Source: Candidatus Hydrogenedentota bacterium
GTDB taxonomy: Bacteria; Hydrogenedentota; Hydrogenedentia; Hydrogenedentales; JAGMZX01
DNA: 20,986 nt
Direction of reading: 5' to 3'
Assembly (NCBI GenBank): GCA_029556545.1
Contig: JAKQEQ010000001.1
Coordinates: forward strand, 1 to 20,986
In this document: positions 5,208 to 15,494 of the stretch, one piece after another
Position numbering within the stretch: position 1 is the first letter of the stretch
Layout of the letters: each line of letters begins with the position of its first letter
The notes under the pieces: generated by a model
Database searches by the model: none
The model's input: the letters and a program-made list of their open reading frames with translations, nothing else
What the model was told of the DNA's origin: nothing
Translations under genes and position numbers: made by a program

Positions 5208-5252
5208 GTCCACCAAGTCCACTAAGCCCACTGGGTCAACGGCGTCCGTGGG
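5208..5252. repeat. intergenic 9-bp tandem array A (degenerate)
   Basis: Five consecutive 9-mers start with G(T/C)C: GTCCACCAA, GTCCACTAA, GCCCACTGG, GTCAACGGC, GTCCGTGGG. The first two differ at one position; the rest are increasingly degenerate. The array sits between the glycoside hydrolase and araB genes, 38 nt before the araB start. It has the same unit length as arrays at 8470 and 15423. Confidence 0.6.
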
Positions 5253-8456: not shown

Positions 8457-8469
8457 CCCCGCGCATTCC

Positions 8470-8505
8470 CGTCCATATCGTCCATACTGTCCATACCGTC
8501 CATAA
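8470..8505. repeat. intergenic 9-bp tandem array B
   Basis: Four head-to-tail 9-mers, CGTCCATAT, CGTCCATAC, TGTCCATAC and CGTCCATAA, fill half of the 76-bp gap between the convergent ends of the arabinokinase-like gene and udk. No separate terminator is obvious in this gap, though GGGC-CGCGC-GCCC just after it could form a short hairpin. Confidence 0.8.
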
Positions 8506-8532
8506 GGGCCGCGCGCCCGACCTTGAATTCCC

Positions 8533-9129
8533 TCAAGCCAGCCTCGCGAGGATACACGCGGCGGCGGCCTCGATCTCGAAGTCGCCCTCAATAACGACAT
8601 CGGCATACTGCCGGGACGGCGCGACGAAGGCGTCGTGCATGGGCCGCGCCTGCTCCAGATATTGCATGATAACGGACGCCGCCGTGCGCCCCCGTTCGCC
8701 CGTGTCGCGGCGCAATCGGCGCGCGAGGCGCAGATCCGCCGCCACATCGAGAAAGACCTTGACATCGATCAGCGCGCGCAGGTCCGCGTCATACAGCACG
8801 TGGAGCCCTTCGAGGATGAGTACAGGCCGCGGCCCAACACGCCGCGTCACCGCCGCGCGCGTGTGCGTGGTGAAGTCGTACTGCGGCGCGTCCACGACGT
8901 GCCCGGCCTTCAGCAGCGCAAGGTCGCGCGCCAGCCGTTCCATCTCGATTGCATCCGGGTGATCGTAATTCACTTGCAGGCGTTGCTCGATGCCGATATG
9001 CGACTGGTCGCGGTAGTACCAGTCCTGCGCAACGACTGCCGCGCGCGCGCCCAGCGCCTCGGCAAGAGCGGCCGACAGCGCCGTCTTACCCGAACCCGTG
9101 CCGCCCGCGATGCCGATGCACCGGATCAT
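8533..9129 (-). CDS. udk: uridine kinase
   Basis: Cytoplasmic pyrimidine salvage enzyme phosphorylating uridine (and usually cytidine) to the monophosphate. The 198-aa product begins MIRCIGIAGGTGSGKTALS, a Walker A P-loop at residues 8-16. The family motifs QDWYYRDQSHI, NYDHPDAIEMERL and DAPQYDFTTHTR follow, then ILEGLHVLYD and the lid-region arginines (LARRLRRDTGERGR). The ATG at 9129 is chosen over an upstream in-frame start because it places the P-loop at the usual distance and overlaps the preceding gene's stop by ATGA, a sign of translational coupling with the DUF4202 gene. Confidence 0.9.
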   Translation of the reverse strand: MIRCIGIAGGTGSGKTALSAALAEALGARAAVVAQDWYYRDQSHIGIEQRLQVNYDHPDAIEMERLARDLALLKAGHVVDAPQYDFTTHTRAAVTRRVGPRPVLILEGLHVLYDADLRALIDVKVFLDVAADLRLARRLRRDTGERGRTAASVIMQYLEQARPMHDAFVAPSRQYADVVIEGDFEIEAAAACILARLA

Positions 9130-9728
9130 GCCGAGTCGTCCCGCGCGGCCAACGCCCGTTCGAGGAGTTTCCGCGCGTCCTCGGAATACGCGAGCGTCCC
9201 GGCGTGCGCCCGCGCAGCCGCGCTCATCTTGCCCCACGTTTTGCGCAGGATGCCGATTATCTTCTCTTCGTCGGTTTTCTCGGCGAACCCGGCGAAATGG
9301 TGTTCGAGAAAGACAAGGCAGGCCGCATCCTCAAGGGATTGCGCGTCCGGGTCCGCGCCGAGACGCCGCTTCCGCACCAACGCCGCGACGCGATCGATGG
9401 TCTCGTCGTCATAACCCACCTCGCGCAGAATCGCCGCCACGGTGTCGGCGTGAAAACCGTACAGTTGCTTGCGCCAGATCAGGTAGCCGCGCCGGTCCAT
9501 GGGAAACGTATCGCGCGGAATCGCCCAACGCCGGACATGTTGCGCGCGACACGCCAGCCGAAGCGCCTCGGGCGCGTCCGGGCGCAAGCGTTCGAGCCAG
9601 GCGCTCATCCGCTGACCGTAGAGCAGTTCCTTCGGGTATTCGTGGCCCTCGAAAACCTCGACGTGCGGGTCCTCGCTGTTTGCGGCGTCGATGGCCGCCA
9701 CCGCCCGCTCGAACCGATCCGATCCCAT
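9126..9728 (-). CDS. DUF4202 family protein
   Basis: A 200-aa protein recognised by DUF4202 signature segments: an early IDAANSEDP, then YPKELLYGQRMSAWL, a central LACRAQHVRRWAIPRDTFP, RRGYLIWRKQL, a LEDAACLVFLEHHF segment and ILRKTWGKMS near the end. The family's molecular function is unknown to me; conserved His, Arg and Trp residues suggest an enzyme. The ATG at 9728 shares one base with the stop of the upstream LRR gene (TGATG), and its own stop overlaps the udk start (ATGA). The three genes are therefore probably one translational unit. The longer in-frame extension upstream only reads through the palindromic repeat and LRR gene in another frame. Confidence 0.85.
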   Translation of the reverse strand: MGSDRFERAVAAIDAANSEDPHVEVFEGHEYPKELLYGQRMSAWLERLRPDAPEALRLACRAQHVRRWAIPRDTFPMDRRGYLIWRKQLYGFHADTVAAILREVGYDDETIDRVAALVRKRRLGADPDAQSLEDAACLVFLEHHFAGFAEKTDEEKIIGILRKTWGKMSAAARAHAGTLAYSEDARKLLERALAARDDSA

Positions 9729-11188
9729 CACCACGCCGCATCCTCTTGCTCCAGAGGCGAGGGATAGAGTGAGGGTCCCTCCATATCCCCTCGCCCTGCG
9801 GGAGAGGGTTGGGGTGAGGGTTCCGCCCCCGCGCTGAACCCGATCTCGCACCCCGGCAAATGCCCGCGCAGCCAGGCCACCTTCTCCGCCGACACGCGCG
9901 TCTGGTAGAGGTCCAGTTCCTTCAGCCGCTGCAACCGCGCGAGATGCTGGAGTCCCGCGTCCGTGATGCCCGTGCCGAACAACTCGAGCGATTCCAAGCT
10001 GTCCAACTTCGCGATAGTCTCGAGCCCGGCGTCGGTGACGCCTGTCCCGGACAGCCCCAGATGTCGCAGCCGGCCTAGGTCGACGAGATGGACCAGCCCC
10101 GCGTCCGTGACGCGCGTCCGGCCAAGCCCGAGCCACGCGAGGCCCGTCAGGCCCGTCAGGTACTTCAGCCCCTCGTCCGAAACCGGCGTATCGTCGAGGG
10201 CAAGCCAGACCAAGTCCTTGTTCCGCGCCAAATGGCGCAGCGCGTCGTCATCGATGCGCGCGCCGACAAGGTCCAGTTCGCGCAAGCCGGACACGCCGTG
10301 CAGGAACGCCAGGTCAACTGCGTCCGCGCCGCTGATTTGCAGGCACACGTCGCCGCGCAATGGCACGCGCAGCGTGCCCCGCGCTTCCGTCGTGACATAA
10401 TCGAGCCAGCGCGCGTACCGTATGGTCCCGACGGCCTTGTCCGCCGGGAAACTGATCTGTCTGATCGGCGCGTGATAAAGCGCGAGCATGGTCAACGCGG
10501 CGCACGCGGTCACGAGCGCAACGCCGGTCGTGATGCCGCGCCGACGTCCCGTGTGCCGCGCGAACAACAACCCCGCGATGCCGCCCATCGCCGCGCACGG
10601 CGCGGCGACGAAAAGCAGCCCGCGCGGCAGCGCCAGCACGTAGGTGTCCATCACCAGCGGGAAGAACACCGCGACAGAACCGCAGGTAATCGCAACGAGC
10701 GCCATACTCAAACAGGCCCAGCCCGCGCCGCTGTGACGCCCGACCGCCGGACCGCGACGCGGCGGCGCAACGGCGGCGAGCATGAACAACAAAGCGCCGA
10801 GTTCGCCGCCGAGGCCCTTCCCGAGCACCGGGAACATCGCGCCGAAGAACGCGCCGACGATCGCCCCGATCACCGCCGCGCCGAGAATAGGCAGCGGGCG
10901 CCGCCCCGCCTGGTCGGGCGGCAGTTCGCGCGCGCCGCGCAACAGGAACCCCGCAATCAGGAACAGCACGGCGCATACGCCCGCCGCGATCCCCGTGTTC
11001 GGGCCGACGGCGGGCACTTCGTACAGGTTGCGGATGGTCGGCGTGCCGATAAACGCGCCAAGAAACGCGCCCACGATCAGACAGCCCACGGCGAAGAAGA
11101 AGCCGCGCAAGACGGGAAAGCGGCCATGTTGCGATCGCGTCCCCGCGGACCGAGAACCTCTTGCTTTCCGTTCAACACTCAACGACAT
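9728..11188 (-). CDS. membrane protein with C-terminal leucine-rich repeats
   Basis: A 486-aa protein. After a basic N-terminus, residues ~25-275 contain about seven hydrophobic segments rich in Gly and Ala (for example VLRGFFFAVGCLIVGAFLGA and ILGAAVIGAIVGAFFGAMF). After the membrane part come six repeats of 24 residues of the LxxLxLxxTxVTDAGLxxL type (for example LGLSGTGVTDAGLETIAKL), the style common in planctomycetes and relatives. The LRRs probably face one side of the membrane and bind a protein partner; no enzymatic motif is seen. The ATG at 11188 has GGGGAG 8 nt upstream, a better spacing than the ATG at 11194. The final ~30 residues (EPSPQPSPAGRG onward) are encoded by palindromic repeat DNA and are probably not part of the original fold. 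Confidence 0.8.
   Translation of the reverse strand: MSLSVERKARGSRSAGTRSQHGRFPVLRGFFFAVGCLIVGAFLGAFIGTPTIRNLYEVPAVGPNTGIAAGVCAVLFLIAGFLLRGARELPPDQAGRRPLPILGAAVIGAIVGAFFGAMFPVLGKGLGGELGALLFMLAAVAPPRRGPAVGRHSGAGWACLSMALVAITCGSVAVFFPLVMDTYVLALPRGLLFVAAPCAAMGGIAGLLFARHTGRRRGITTGVALVTACAALTMLALYHAPIRQISFPADKAVGTIRYARWLDYVTTEARGTLRVPLRGDVCLQISGADAVDLAFLHGVSGLRELDLVGARIDDDALRHLARNKDLVWLALDDTPVSDEGLKYLTGLTGLAWLGLGRTRVTDAGLVHLVDLGRLRHLGLSGTGVTDAGLETIAKLDSLESLELFGTGITDAGLQHLARLQRLKELDLYQTRVSAEKVAWLRGHLPGCEIGFSAGAEPSPQPSPAGRGDMEGPSLYPSPLEQEDAAW
9741..9824 (-). repeat. two REP-like palindromic units inside the end of the LRR gene
   Basis: Two related units lie ~46 bp apart, at 9787-9824 and 9741-9778. 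On the plus strand both show CCTC, then GAGGG, then GTGAGGGT(T/C)CC at matching positions. The first has a CCTCGCCC/GGGAGAGG hairpin and the second CCTCT/AGAGG. On the minus strand the text CTCACCCCAACCCTCTCCC is a widespread bacterial intergenic repeat type whose translation reads PSPQPSPAGRG. Here it is read in frame as the C-terminus of the LRR protein. Confidence 0.75.
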
Positions 11189-11237
11189 GATCATGACTCC
11201 CCTTCGTTCTCGCCCCTTCAGGGCACACCCACGCGCC

Positions 11238-11243
11238 ATTATA
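11238..11243 (-). promoter_or_regulatory. candidate -10 box for the LRR-DUF4202-udk unit
   Basis: Perfect TATAAT on the minus strand in the 84-bp gap, about 50 nt before the LRR start codon. No good -35 hexamer is found 16-18 bp upstream, so the call rests on the -10 box and its position. Confidence 0.35.
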
Positions 11244-11272
11244 TCGGACGTGGCGTCCCCGGGCTCGAACAC

Positions 11273-13456
11273 TTATGGATATAGTTTTGGCCGAATTCTC
11301 TCGTAGGCATCGAGTCCGGGCCGAAAACTCGCGACAATGTCCAACGCCGGCGTGGCGGCCTCGATCTGTTCCCGCACCGCAGGGCCGCCCGCGAGCGTAT
11401 CGAAGAAGGGGTTCCACGCGAATTCATCGGGATGCCGCCGCCGAATCGCGCGCAGGAGCGCGAGTGCCGTCGTGAACGGGCGCGCGCGCGCGGCGTCGAC
11501 CACGGCGACATGGATGCCGCGGCACAGTTGGTCGCGAAAGCGTGGATCGACGGCCCGGCCCGGGATCGAGCGGGGGGTGAAGAACGTCGGACGCAAGGCG
11601 CACCCCGCGTATTCCTCGGGCGCGAGTTCCTTGATCACGGCCAGTGGGTCGAGCCACGGCGTACCGACAAGGTGGAACGGTCGGTCGGTTCCGCGCCCTT
11701 CGCTGAGGTTCGTGCCCTCGAAAAGGCACGTGCCCACGTACAGCAGCGCCGTCTCGGGGTGTGGGATGTTGGGCGACGGCGCGACCCACGGCAGCGCGCA
11801 TTGATGAAACAGGAACGCGCGCGGCCAGTTGTCCAACAGGTTCACGCGCAGATCGAGCTTCTTGCCCTTGAGTTCCGTGTTCTGAAAGAAGACCGCGATT
11901 TCGCCCAGCGTCATCCCGTGCCGCACCGGCACCGCGCCCCAGCATACGGGCGAACCCGCGCGCTGCGCCACGGGCCCCTCCAGCGTCACGCCGCCCAACG
12001 GGTTCGGCCTATCGAGAACGATTACCGGCTTCTTCGCCTCGACGCAGGCGTGCAGGCATTCCTTCATCGTGTGCGCGTAGGTGTAGTAACGTGCGCCCAC
12101 GTCTGGCAGGTCGACGACGAAGTAGTCAATATCCTTGAGTTCATCGAGGCACGGGCGCTTTTGCGGGCCGTATAGACTCGTCACGGGGACCGCCCCCTGC
12201 CGCGACGCAACCGTCGCCCCAGCCTCGGCCTCGCCTTCGTAGCCGTGCTCCGGGCTGTAGATCCGCCGCAGCGCCACCTCGGAATGTAGTTGCAGCGTCT
12301 CGCGGATGCGCAGGCCCGTCTGGTTGATGGCCGCGCTGTTCGTCAGCAGTGCGACGCGCGCGCCCGCCAGCGGACGATAGAAATCCCACAGCACCCGATC
12401 GAGTCCGCCATGCGCATTCGTGCGCGACGTATAGAAGCGACGCGCCACCGCGCTGTGGAACGCGCGGCGCAGCGCGCGATTGTCCCGCCGCTGCCGTGAG
12501 GGATGGCACGTGTTGCTCAACAGGATCGCAAACAGGCCCGTCTCCCGGTCCAGCCAGAGGCTCGTGCCCGTCCACCCCGTATGGCCGAAGGCCGCGCGCG
12601 TCGGAAGATACCCCTCCGAACTGTCGCCCCACGGATCGACCTTCCAGCCGAGTCCCTGCCACGGATACGACGGCACTTGGCCGACGCGCGTCATCATCCG
12701 CAATGTCTCGGGCCGCAGGACTTGCCCGCCGAGCAACGCACGGCAGAACTTCGCCAAGTCCTGCGCCGTCGAGAACAGGCCCGCATGCCCCGCAACGCCC
12801 CCCGCCGCGAAAGCGTTCTCGTCATGCACCTCCCCAACAATGATCCGCTTACGCCACGCACAGTCCTCCGTGGCCGCGCACGCCGCCGCCCACTCCGCCG
12901 GCGGGCGAAAATCCGTGCGCGTCATGCCGAGAGGCCGCCAGAGCCGCGCGCGGCAAAACGCATCAAGCGCGTCGCCCGCAATCAGCTCGACCATCTTCCC
13001 GAGAATCATGAAGCCGATGTCCGAGTATTGACGCCGCGCGCCGGGCGTCCGCGCGAGTTCCAGAGCGGCGGCGCGTTGCAGCATCTCGGTCAGCGACGTC
13101 GCGTCGCGATACCAGGGCTGGCCGGCGGTGAGACCGGAGGTGTGCAGCAGCAGATGCCGGACCGTGAAGCGATTGAACGCCGGTACCGGGACGATGGCGC
13201 CCGCCGGCTGATCGAGATCGAAACGTCCTTCCTCCCAGAGCAGCAGAAGCGCCGTCGTCGTGGCAACAACCTTCGTCAGCGACGCGAGATCGTACGGCGT
13301 ATCCGTCCGCGCGGCAAGCGGCTCGGGAACCCGTTGCCGGTCGCCGAATGCGTCGATCAAGTAATCCGTCGTCGCGTCCCCTACGCACCCCACCGCGCCC
13401 GGAGCGCGCGCGTCACCCACAGCCTGTTTCAATGCGTCGCGAAGCGGATCGGACAC
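11273..13456 (-). CDS. fusion of AmiE-like serine hydrolase and NamZ exo-N-acetylmuramidase (DUF1343/GH171)
   Basis: A 727-aa two-domain protein. Residues ~1-345 are a class C beta-lactamase-like serine hydrolase with Ser59-Leu-Thr-Lys62, Tyr144-Ser-Asp and His292-Thr-Gly in the order of the active-site motifs. SLTKVVAT, YSD(I/L)GF and FGHTG(W/F)TGTS resemble Bacillus AmiE (YbbE), an N-acetylmuramyl-L-alanine amidase. Residues ~355-727 are DUF1343/NamZ (YbbC): YSPEHGYEGEAEAG with Glu403, DLPDVGARYYTYAHTM, VLDRPNPLGG and GTNLSEGRGTDRPF. NamZ releases MurNAc from muropeptide ends. Combined, the protein could strip peptide and MurNAc during peptidoglycan turnover. The start is uncertain: GTG at 13456 has GAGGA 11 nt upstream, GTG at 13474 and ATG at 13513 are alternatives. 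None gives a clear signal peptide, whereas the Bacillus proteins are exported. Confidence 0.85.
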   Translation of the reverse strand: MSDPLRDALKQAVGDARAPGAVGCVGDATTDYLIDAFGDRQRVPEPLAARTDTPYDLASLTKVVATTTALLLLWEEGRFDLDQPAGAIVPVPAFNRFTVRHLLLHTSGLTAGQPWYRDATSLTEMLQRAAALELARTPGARRQYSDIGFMILGKMVELIAGDALDAFCRARLWRPLGMTRTDFRPPAEWAAACAATEDCAWRKRIIVGEVHDENAFAAGGVAGHAGLFSTAQDLAKFCRALLGGQVLRPETLRMMTRVGQVPSYPWQGLGWKVDPWGDSSEGYLPTRAAFGHTGWTGTSLWLDRETGLFAILLSNTCHPSRQRRDNRALRRAFHSAVARRFYTSRTNAHGGLDRVLWDFYRPLAGARVALLTNSAAINQTGLRIRETLQLHSEVALRRIYSPEHGYEGEAEAGATVASRQGAVPVTSLYGPQKRPCLDELKDIDYFVVDLPDVGARYYTYAHTMKECLHACVEAKKPVIVLDRPNPLGGVTLEGPVAQRAGSPVCWGAVPVRHGMTLGEIAVFFQNTELKGKKLDLRVNLLDNWPRAFLFHQCALPWVAPSPNIPHPETALLYVGTCLFEGTNLSEGRGTDRPFHLVGTPWLDPLAVIKELAPEEYAGCALRPTFFTPRSIPGRAVDPRFRDQLCRGIHVAVVDAARARPFTTALALLRAIRRRHPDEFAWNPFFDTLAGGPAVREQIEAATPALDIVASFRPGLDAYERIRPKLYP

Positions 13457-13866
13457 GGCGTGCTGTTTCCTCACTGTATGATTTCGGTCCCGGCGACCGG
13501 TACGATACCGCATAGGCACGGACCGATGGAAGACGCGCCAAGGAGAACCCGTTCGGAACAGGCAAAGCGGACGACGACGCCCCAAGAAGACGCCGCCGCC
13601 CGCTTACCGGCCTAACCACCCAGGCAACGCGGTTGGCATCGCAAAAAAAAGAAAGAGAACGCCCCCTTCACTCGCGAAGCCGACACATCCTCTACAAGGA
13701 ACCCCTCCCGCCGTTAGGCGGCCGCTCCCTTTCGATAATCGGAGATTACCACCAAGGGTAGGCGTTCCCTTCCACCGTGCTCCGCGTGTGGAGTATGGCG
13801 TTCCCCTTGCGCCCGACTCAGGTCAAGGCGCGTTGCCCCCGTCAGGGGGACCGTCGAAGACCGCCG
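13457..13866. other. intergenic region, ~410 bp
   Basis: No supported gene on either strand. On the minus strand, downstream of the small Lys-rich gene, there is a hairpin CCGCC-GTTA-GGCGG (13708-13721). Farther on there is a weak CTTC/GAAG hairpin (13672-13685), followed on the minus strand by a T-rich run at 13642-13656. Either may help end transcription of the small gene, but neither is a textbook terminator. Upstream signals for the amidase-NamZ gene are not clear. Confidence 0.4.
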
Positions 13867-13992
13867 CTATTTCTTCTTCGCGGCTTTCTTCTTCGGCGCA
13901 GCCTTCTTCTTCGGCGCGGCCTTCTTCTTCGGCGCGGCCTTCTTCTTGGCGGCTGCCTTCTTCTTCGGAGCAGCTTTCTTCTTAGCGGGCAT
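13867..13992 (-). CDS. 41-aa Lys/Ala/Pro-rich histone H1-like peptide
   Basis: A very short gene, seen only by reading the minus strand. It starts MPAKKKAAPKKKAAAKKK and continues as repeats of KKKAAP to the final KKK and TAG. Of 41 residues, 21 are Lys; the rest are Ala, Pro and the initiator Met. The start is well supported: AAGGAGAG (13998-14005) lies 5 nt before ATG. The composition equals the C-terminal tails of eukaryotic histone H1 and of bacterial H1-like proteins such as chlamydial Hc1/Hc2, so DNA or RNA compaction is the likely role; that is inference from charge alone. It has no globular domain. Lysine codons are AAG-biased, giving the regular CTTCTT pattern on the plus strand. Lys-rich repeats could also change length by slippage. 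Confidence 0.75.
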   Translation of the reverse strand: MPAKKKAAPKKKAAAKKKAAPKKKAAPKKKAAPKKKAAKKK

Positions 13993-14047
13993 GCTAACTC
14001 TCCTTCTCTTGCTTTGCCCTATTGCCAACAACCCGGCGGACTACCTT

Positions 14048-14120
14048 ACACGACAACGGGTCGTGTGCCGCCGAAGCGCCTCCCGCTTGCGGGAAGCCGC
14101 CTTCACGGGCGCAAGCCCGT
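14048..14120 (-). other. three consecutive hairpins between the small hypothetical gene and the Lys-rich gene
   Basis: Three inverted repeats follow one another: ACACGAC-AACGG-GTCGTGT (14048-14066), TCCCGC-TT-GCGGGA (14081-14094, extendable with a G-T pair to nine base pairs) and ACGGGC-GCAA-GCCCGT (14105-14120). The last overlaps the stop codon of the 77-aa ORF. On the minus strand they would form a folded leader ending about 56 nt before the start codon of the Lys-rich gene. They could be a terminator/attenuator, RNA stabilisers or REP-type elements. Confidence 0.6.
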
Positions 14121-14353
14121 TAAAGCGCGACGGGAATCCATGCGCCATTCGGATCGTCTTCGGTCACGACTCGAAACCCGATCGTTGCCAGTCTCGATAA
14201 CGACTTCGCGAACACCGCTTCGCCACGCGTGACGCAATCGCCCGCGCGCGTCGCGTCGATTTTGCGCCATTTCGCGCGCCGCCGTTCACCTCGATCCGAG
14301 GGCTGCAAGATCGCGGATCGTCCTGTGTTTTCAATGCGATTCGCGATCATCAC
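14120..14353 (-). CDS. small hypothetical protein (77 aa)
   Basis: I do not recognise this protein. It begins MMIANRIENTGRSAILQP, has a basic middle (RGERRRAKWRKIDATRAGD) and ends with SRLATIGFRVVTEDDPNGA and IPVAL. There is no signal peptide or membrane segment. Codons are mostly GC-ending, as in its neighbours, and it lies in the same direction between ubiE and the Lys-rich gene. The ribosome binding site is weak (GGGTG directly before the ATG pair at 14353/14350), so it may be a chance ORF. Confidence 0.45.
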   Translation of the reverse strand: MMIANRIENTGRSAILQPSDRGERRRAKWRKIDATRAGDCVTRGEAVFAKSLSRLATIGFRVVTEDDPNGAWIPVAL

Positions 14354-14545
14354 CCGCGCATGTCATCGTCGATTCAACTTTTCGAGTGTCTGTCTTTAGC
14401 AAAGAAAGAGGAAAAAGTAAAGAACTTTTTTTCATCAGATTTCTTCCGGCGCTCCACGCCCCCATCGCGAGACATCATCATCAGACGCAAGAAGGCGGCG
14501 TGCGCGTCACGCATCAAGCGTGCGCGATGGAGAAGTGCGGCGCGT
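14354..14545. other. AT-rich gap downstream of ubiE
   Basis: The stretch 14396-14450 is clearly richer in A and T than the rest of the window. It contains an inverted repeat AAAAAGT-AAAGA-ACTTTTT (14412-14430) and pyrimidine-rich runs on the minus strand. This could serve as a terminator after ubiE, although the stem has only one G-C pair. No other feature is seen. Confidence 0.35.
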
Positions 14546-15289
14546 CTACACGACGACGCCGACGTACAACATGGCGATGCCGAAGGTGAGCGGAACGGCG
14601 CGAACTTCCACGAAGCCCGCCGCGCGCATCAGCGCGCAAAACGCTTCGCCGTACGGAAAGGTTTCGACGGTCTCGTTCAAGTACCGATATGCCTGAATAT
14701 CCCCTGAAATCAGGCCCCCGATGCGCGGCAGCACGCGACGGAAATACAACAGATACAACTCCCGAAGCAACGCGTTGCCCGGCAGCGAAAATTCGAGCAC
14801 CAGCGCGCGGCCTTTCCGCCGCAGCACGCGGCGCATCTCCCGAAGTGCCGCGTCCACGTCGATCACATTGCGGATGCCGAACGCGATCGTCGCCACGTCG
14901 AAGGATGCATCGCGCAACGCGAGACGCGTCGCGTCGACCCGCGCAAGACCGCACCGAGGAGCAGCAGCGTCCCGCCCCCGATTACGCCCCGGCCCTCGCG
15001 CAATCTTGACACGCGCGCGCGACAACATCCCCGAGGAAACATCCACGCCGAGCGCAAGTTCAATCCGCGGCTCGATCGCGCACAAAGACAGCATGACGTC
15101 GCCCGTTCCCGTGGCGAGATCGAGCAGGCGCAAAGCCGCGCCCTCCGGAAGATGACGCGCCATGCGCCTGCGCCACACCACGTCCCGCCGAAGCGACAAC
15201 ACGCGGTTGAGGAAATCGTAGCGGGGCGCAATCCGGTCGAACATCTCCCCCGCGCGTCGCCGACTGGGTCCTTCAGGCGCCGAATTCAT
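14546..15289 (-). CDS. ubiE: UbiE/MenG quinone C-methyltransferase
   Basis: SAM-dependent methyltransferase of menaquinone (and in some bacteria ubiquinone) biosynthesis, methylating the ring of the prenylated precursor at the membrane. The 247-aa product has the family opening MFDRIAPRYDFLNRVLSL, SAM motif I LLDLATGTGDVML, GVDVSSGML, then ATIAFGIRNVIDVDAALREM, VLEFSLP and a late GDIQAYRYLNETVETFP. The ATG at 15289 has GGAGGAG (15301-15307) 11 nt upstream; the earlier in-frame ATG at 15322 has no ribosome binding site. Whether it serves menaquinone or ubiquinone cannot be told here; anaerobic or PVC-type lineages usually use menaquinone. It is transcribed divergently from the flagellar operon. 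Confidence 0.92.
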   Translation of the reverse strand: MNSAPEGPSRRRAGEMFDRIAPRYDFLNRVLSLRRDVVWRRRMARHLPEGAALRLLDLATGTGDVMLSLCAIEPRIELALGVDVSSGMLSRARVKIARGPGRNRGRDAAAPRCGLARVDATRLALRDASFDVATIAFGIRNVIDVDAALREMRRVLRRKGRALVLEFSLPGNALLRELYLLYFRRVLPRIGGLISGDIQAYRYLNETVETFPYGEAFCALMRAAGFVEVRAVPLTFGIAMLYVGVVV

Positions 15290-15336
15290 CCTGCTCGTTT
15301 CTCCTCCACGGCAAAGCTGCATGTCTTTGCCCGCTG

Positions 15337-15365
15337 ATACTACGTAAGGCTCGACGCGTGTTCAA
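15337..15365 (-). promoter_or_regulatory. candidate sigma70 promoter of ubiE
   Basis: On the minus strand TTGAAC (15365-15360) and TAGTAT (15342-15337) are separated by exactly 17 bp, each matching four of six consensus bases. Transcription would start about 40 nt before the ubiE ATG. Confidence 0.4.
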
Positions 15366-15422
15366 TTCGACGACCAGCGCTCCAACCAAACTGACCGACG
15401 CTTTCCCGCTCGAGCCGGTGAA

Positions 15423-15494
15423 GATCGGTCTGATCCGTCCGATCCGTCCGATCCGTCCAATCCGTCCGATCCGTCCGACTTGCCCGACCCAGCC
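15423..15494. repeat. intergenic 9-bp tandem array C
   Basis: Eight contiguous 9-mers. GATCGGTCT is followed by three exact GATCCGTCC units, then AATCCGTCC and another GATCCGTCC. The last two units, GACTTGCCC and GACCCAGCC, are decayed. The array lies between the divergent ubiE and fliQ promoters, upstream of both. It has the same unit length and GTCC core as arrays A and B. Confidence 0.9.

Follow-up and report, generated by a model that had tools for sequence, protein, structure and literature searches.

The window, a stretch of 20,986 nucleotides from a Candidatus Hydrogenedentota bacterium, carries three short intergenic arrays that belong to a genome-wide family of repeats. Each unit of this family consists of a fixed core (GTCC, in a given array GTCCAT, GTCCGA, GTCCYT etc.) followed by freely varying bases, in a strict 9-bp register. 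Arrays usually comprise 3–5 units, and in some genomes they form inverted pairs. The units are not plain copies of one another: the core is constant, and the spacer after it is random in a relative (G010) and partly so in the host. Such arrays may be sites for a putative DNA-binding factor. The window is a contig of the host genome (G000), which is assembled into 195 contigs totalling 6.1 Mb, and its three arrays are as follows.

Array A, 5208..5252, forward strand: five 9-bp units, three with exact GTCC cores and two degenerate; co-directional gap (5104+/5291+), with an FGGY-family carbohydrate kinase gene (Pfam) downstream.
Array B, 8470..8505, forward strand: four GTCCAT units with spacers ATC, ACT and ACC; convergent gap (8456+/8533-), the stop codon of a galactokinase-like gene (Pfam) lying 14 bp before the array.
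Array C, 15423..15494, forward strand: GTCCGATCC-type units, five exact GTCC cores, both end units degenerate; divergent gap (15244-/15627+) between a ubiE-type methyltransferase gene and a fliQ-type (Bac_export_3) gene (Pfam).

In the GTCC register, array A reads GTCCACCAA GTCCACTAA GCCCACTGG GTCAACGGC GTCC, a decayed array with three of five cores exact; array B reads GTCCATATC GTCCATACT GTCCATACC GTCCATAAG, and array C GTCTGATCC GTCCGATCC GTCCGATCC GTCCAATCC GTCCGATCC GTCCGACTT. Tandem Repeats Finder (TRF) placed period-9 arrays at 5208-5231, 8469-8504 and 15423-15478. The numbers of GTCC cores in 9-bp register (three in A, four in B and five in C) were rarely reached when each gap was shuffled (P = 0.0006, <0.0002 and <0.0002, respectively). 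With two units degenerate, array A is the weakest of the three. These results confirm the three 9-bp arrays with a GTCC core described in the first-pass annotation, and its gap types (co-directional for A, convergent for B, divergent for C) match the gene calls. Its statement that none lies inside a gene holds for the gaps of A, B and C and fails genome-wide, where 9 of 32 arrays overlap called genes.

Weak period-9 repeats were also detected by TRF within genes of the window. Other repeats there are coding: an 18-bp tandem repeat (6.3 copies) makes up a very short Lys/Ala-rich gene (13867-13992, reverse strand) that by eye resembles small histone-like proteins, and a 6/18/24-bp repeat (2429-2556) encodes a Gly-Glu linker in a secreted beta-helix protein. 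Separately, a single gene (11273-13456, reverse strand) joins a beta-lactamase-family domain with both NamZ (exo-beta-N-acetylmuramidase) domains.

The family is strongly enriched in the host genome. The pattern GTCCA-N4-GTCCA-N4-GTCC gave 104 matches against 0 for the reversed pattern, and four GTCC at 9-bp spacing gave 110 against 0. For TRF we used a 0.89 Mb sample (~0.86 Mb without masked N, ~14% of the genome), composed mostly of long contigs, some already known to hold strict-pattern matches. Here, three consecutive GTCC occurred 42 times at period 9 and 0–10 times at other periods. Intergenic TRF arrays numbered 13 at period 9, plus 6 at period 18 and 2 at period 27, compared with 6, 7, 1, 3, 1 and 3 at periods 6, 7, 8, 10, 11 and 12; shuffled intergenic DNA yielded 0.1 period-9 arrays per replicate. 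The majority of the period-9 intergenic arrays contain GTCC or GGAC. In a motif-blind scan of every 4-mer at periods 5–24 in intergenic DNA, GTCC/GGAC at period 9 ranked first. It occurred in 17 gaps of the first sample and in 39 of 741 gaps of an enlarged sample, the latter not an unbiased rate because the added part of the sample was picked for hits; this part was used for context and for statistics within arrays. Setting aside 4-mers of the same arrays, the runners-up in the enlarged sample were CGAG at period 6 (13) and AGGG at period 7 (9).

In the first sample, where 87% of the DNA is coding, 23 of the 32 arrays were intergenic. Further host arrays keep GTCC with other bases after it (GATCC, CTTTG, TATCG). 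General over-representation of the tetramer was rejected, as the observed/expected ratio of GTCC outside arrays is 0.93 in the host and 0.92 in its congener G001. The excess of 9-bp units over 6–12 bp units and over shuffled intergenic DNA, on which the first-pass annotation had made its case depend, is thus present in the 0.89 Mb sample. The genome-wide intergenic enrichment supports its proposal of a process generating or maintaining 9-bp arrays at the borders of genes; this process is specific to a core rather than a general 9-bp machine. The host also contains 7-bp AGGG-type and 6-bp CTCGTN-type intergenic arrays, as well as a 22-copy 7-bp CGCATTC array on contig C24 (L050:186-340). AGGG arrays are rare in G001, in a search whose reversed-pattern control was not clean, as members of this repeat family can also fit the pattern when reversed.

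The contrast between core and spacer was quantified by a leave-out test, in which arrays were detected by one part of the core and likeness was scored at the positions left out. Neighbouring units in the host were 0.94–0.96 alike at the first two core positions (G1 and T2) and 0.40–0.59 alike at spacer positions. For G010 the values were 0.98–1.0 in the core and 0.26–0.29, equal to random, in the spacers. Identical neighbouring spacer triplets were in excess in the host (27% versus 8.7% after shuffling, P = 0.0002), which indicates local unit duplication there, with a contribution from slippage. The corresponding values in G010 were 2.9% and 5.0%, and its neighbouring spacers are not mutual copies (0.235 versus 0.349 after shuffling). 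Exact chains of two, three and four units numbered 22, 16 and 17, with no steep fall.

Arrays of the GTCCATNNN type were found in 32 of 68 Hydrogenedentota genomes, with no control match. Match counts differ sharply between congeners in this phylum (169/4/0, 152/32 and 88/10/3/1). In G001, the orthologous gaps of arrays B and C contain no array; neither does the DNA upstream of the kinase gene, the counterpart of array A, where the preceding gene has moved to another contig. A 289 kb sample of G001 held almost no intergenic tandem arrays. Analysis of the array A–C junctions through G001 was abandoned, its intergenic DNA being too diverged for alignment. Among other members of the host's order, G014 is unlike the other listed genomes and unusually repeat-rich, with 727 pattern matches and 289 in the reversed control.

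Another pair, G010 and G046 (~92% identical, G046 being of the same order as the host), has several arrays in common. Copy number, singled out by the first-pass annotation for comparison between relatives, does vary here: the arrays differ by whole units (9 or 18 bp) and by spacer changes, and at one locus (L256) an array is present in G010 and absent from G046. The G010 array at L262:13267-13307 has as its G046 counterpart (L284:1501-2197) ~500 bp that by eye resemble a small HicA/HicB-type toxin-antitoxin pair. A first ortholog count, which gave 2% core divergence and strong conservation, was discarded as biased, since arrays had been chosen for intact cores and a decayed locus was omitted. 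In a recount with this sampling bias removed, the values depend on the genome in which the arrays were found. Spacer divergence was 32% (found in G010) or 28% (found in G046), versus 12.0% or 11.5% in the flanks (P = 2e-6 and 4e-5). This excess is firm, although mispairing of units after gain or loss may inflate the figure. Core divergence was 10.4% versus 12.0% in the flanks for arrays found in G010 (P = 0.6) and 4.4% versus 11.5% in the opposite direction (P = 0.008). The non-significant value from the G010 side arises because some arrays decay in G046, and selection on the core between these genomes is not firm.

Beyond Hydrogenedentota, a scan of named genomes detected GTCCAT arrays at least in Sumerlaeota, Lentisphaeria, Verrucomicrobia, Chlamydiae, Chlorobi, Desulfomicrobium and others; many carrier records are metagenome bins, so single taxon assignments may be wrong. 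Inverted pairs with random spacers occur in Chlamydiae, Sumerlaeota, Desulfomicrobium, Chlorobi, Lentisphaerae and Hydrogenedentota. In 15 such genomes, matches range from 5 to 182 per genome, with none for the control pattern. Among carriers, the culturable Oligosphaera ethanolica DSM 24202 (genome G079) has 102 matches. Of the 40 pairs at all searched loci, 36 run from a GGAC arm to a GTCC arm and 4 in reverse, and arms of 4–5 units are the commonest.

With respect to genes, host gaps with arrays are densest between convergent genes (0.69 per kb), followed by co-directional (0.34) and divergent ones (0.24). In co-directional gaps the arrays sit nearer to the stop codon of the preceding gene (mean relative position 0.38, P = 0.012). 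Promoter avoidance would explain this placement. In G010, 9 of 14 clusters are inverted pairs, mainly between divergent genes and ~100 bp from each start. No fixed position relative to promoters emerged across species (host and G010). Array strand in the host agreed with that of the gene in 17 cases and opposed it in 10, with no clear preference. A coding role was rejected because spacers contain stop codons in the obvious frames and arrays are mostly intergenic. Neither DNA bending, raised in the first-pass annotation, nor a helical structural role gained support: a 9-bp period does not keep phase with the helix, and the arrays showed no conserved location.

We tentatively favour the reading of the arrays as sites for a putative DNA-binding factor that keeps the core, with copy number changing through slippage or unequal exchange. 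A sequence-specific protein of this kind would recognise the core and cause it to be retained, slippage or unequal exchange would alter the number of units, and the spacers would be under no constraint. The factor would be dispensable, as the whole array set is gained or lost among congeners. Symmetric pairs and arrays without a clear strand preference suggest action on DNA rather than RNA. Also counted in favour of a binding factor are the first rank in the motif-blind scan, the 104–110 matches against none, the leave-out contrast, spacer divergence above that of flanks, the low core divergence in one direction, the prevailing pair arrangement, the 17 to 10 strand count and the chains without a steep fall. 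Counted against it are the core-to-flank comparison from G010, the lack of the family in G001, the lack of a fixed promoter-relative position across species and local unit duplication in the host.

Nearly as likely, and close to the binding-factor reading, is exchange without function, in which dispersed arrays would swap units by template switching or short-homology gene conversion. The core would then be the region of homology and become homogenised, and reshuffled spacers would look random and outpace their flanks. This agrees with the spacer divergence between G010 and G046, with adjacent G010 spacers not being mutual copies, with turnover of whole units at one locus and with the strong variation among congeners. 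However, swapping within a genome would by itself leave the hexamer core common to several phyla unexplained, and no donor spacer was traced. The same hexamer across phyla thus favours a binding factor over exchange, while the spacer excess together with the equivocal core test favours exchange over a binding factor. It is also possible, though doubtful, that the arrays form a dispersed cross-phylum element: hexamer sites in exact 9-bp register, often arranged as mirror-image pairs of 4–5 sites per arm, with putative mobile or dispensable machinery, and spacers that would outpace neutral DNA through exchange between arrays.

It is unlikely that the arrays are ordinary slippage minisatellites sharing a GC-rich core by chance. 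Slippage would account for the identical adjacent triplets in the host, for the 9- and 18-bp indels between species and for long arrays with identical spacers, found in Chthoniobacter, Geomonas and actinobacteria, many of them within long open frames; these look like ordinary repeats. It fits poorly with the dominance of a single core over all 4-mers and periods, the sharp conservation contrast within the unit and the lack of any trace of copying in G010. One core genome-wide combined with random spacers makes plain slippage insufficient.

We consider an RNA-level element, such as a terminator, an mRNA 3' end, a Rho loading site or a site for a GGA-recognising regulator (e.g., CsrA), improbable. 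The proximity of host arrays to upstream stop codons and their density in convergent gaps would suit it, as would the strong predicted RNA folds of most inverted pairs tested: five of six pairs from relatives and one host pair (z from −3.7 to −13.7), the pair without a strong fold being a stretch that misses most of an arm. Against this, strand preference is not clear, the pairs in G010 lie mainly between divergent genes, and arrays B and C of the window gave no RNA fold (z near 0). Hairpin formation belongs to the paired form and not to the window arrays. Least probable is a transposase by-product (REP-like elements mobilised by a Y1 transposase, or GTCC target sites duplicated over 9 bp): the arrays are dispersed, intergenic and patchy, and L256 has one in G010 and none in G046, but PF01797 does not track them (none found in G009 with 114 matches, six copies in G029 with 5 matches), and a target-site duplication would copy all 9 bp, yet G010 spacers are random.

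Short intergenic repeat families are usually put down to slippage; in this family, a unit's core and its spacer behave differently. With this contrast, the recurrence of the core in distant phyla and congeners that range from many arrays to none, the old question of whether a protein or recombination maintains such families becomes directly testable. In these groups, which are mostly uncultured, the arrays can also disturb assembly and strain typing. The analysis extends the first reading of the window by the fixed-core, free-spacer layout, the inverted pairs in relatives, the spread over phyla and the published heptamer analogues.

Our literature search, which covered mostly sources outside subscription journals, found no description of a GTCC 9-bp family. 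Several known systems share some of its properties. The arrays have the general trait of short-tandem-repeat families: the host has many intergenic loci at which one short unit is repeated head to tail. STRR heptamers of heterocystous cyanobacteria (Calothrix) are degenerate short-period intergenic arrays with several sequence types per genome; they are set apart by description, having a 7-bp period and other motifs. The GTCC unit is 9 bp, not 7 bp, separate 7-bp AGGG arrays coexist with it, and its units are not near-identical over their whole length. In omega repressor heptads and MraZ boxes, oligomeric proteins bind short sites that follow one another in fixed register, in direct or inverted orientation. 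These sites occur at one or a few promoters and their protein is known, whereas GTCC arrays occupy many loci per genome. REP/BIME elements and REPINs with RAYT (Y1) transposases are likewise dispersed, intergenic and patchy between relatives, but consist of single palindromes rather than hexamers in fixed register, and the GTCC arrays show no Y1 link.

Closer analogues are the intergenic GGGAATC heptamer arrays of Xanthomonas, located on average 28 nt from the upstream ORF end, with frequent inverted pairs and 83% of sites conserved between two Xanthomonas, and the GGGGA(C/T)T heptamer arrays of Nostoc (Rehm et al. 2015, PMC4692102). Like these, GTCC arrays are short, intergenic, numerous in a genome, near the upstream ORF end and variable in length between relatives, and they share the inverted pairs of Xanthomonas. 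In contrast to the 7-bp units with quadruplex-forming G tracts of both groups, they have a 9-bp unit, no G tract and, in some genomes, a random spacer, and they are strongly lost between congeners where the Xanthomonas sites are mostly conserved. TAACTGA direct repeats of marine Beggiatoaceae are intergenic, with 2–6 copies per set, patchy over distant phyla, contiguous in their 7-bp unit, mostly forward and just upstream of start codons (MacGregor 2015, PMC4679880). Both families have one favoured sequence, a patchy distribution across phyla and whole-unit indels between close relatives; the GTCC arrays combine a fixed core with free bases, and their strand preference in the host is not clear. 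Unit length, the division into core and spacer, and the range of taxa thus set the family apart from the heptamer and TAACTGA repeats.
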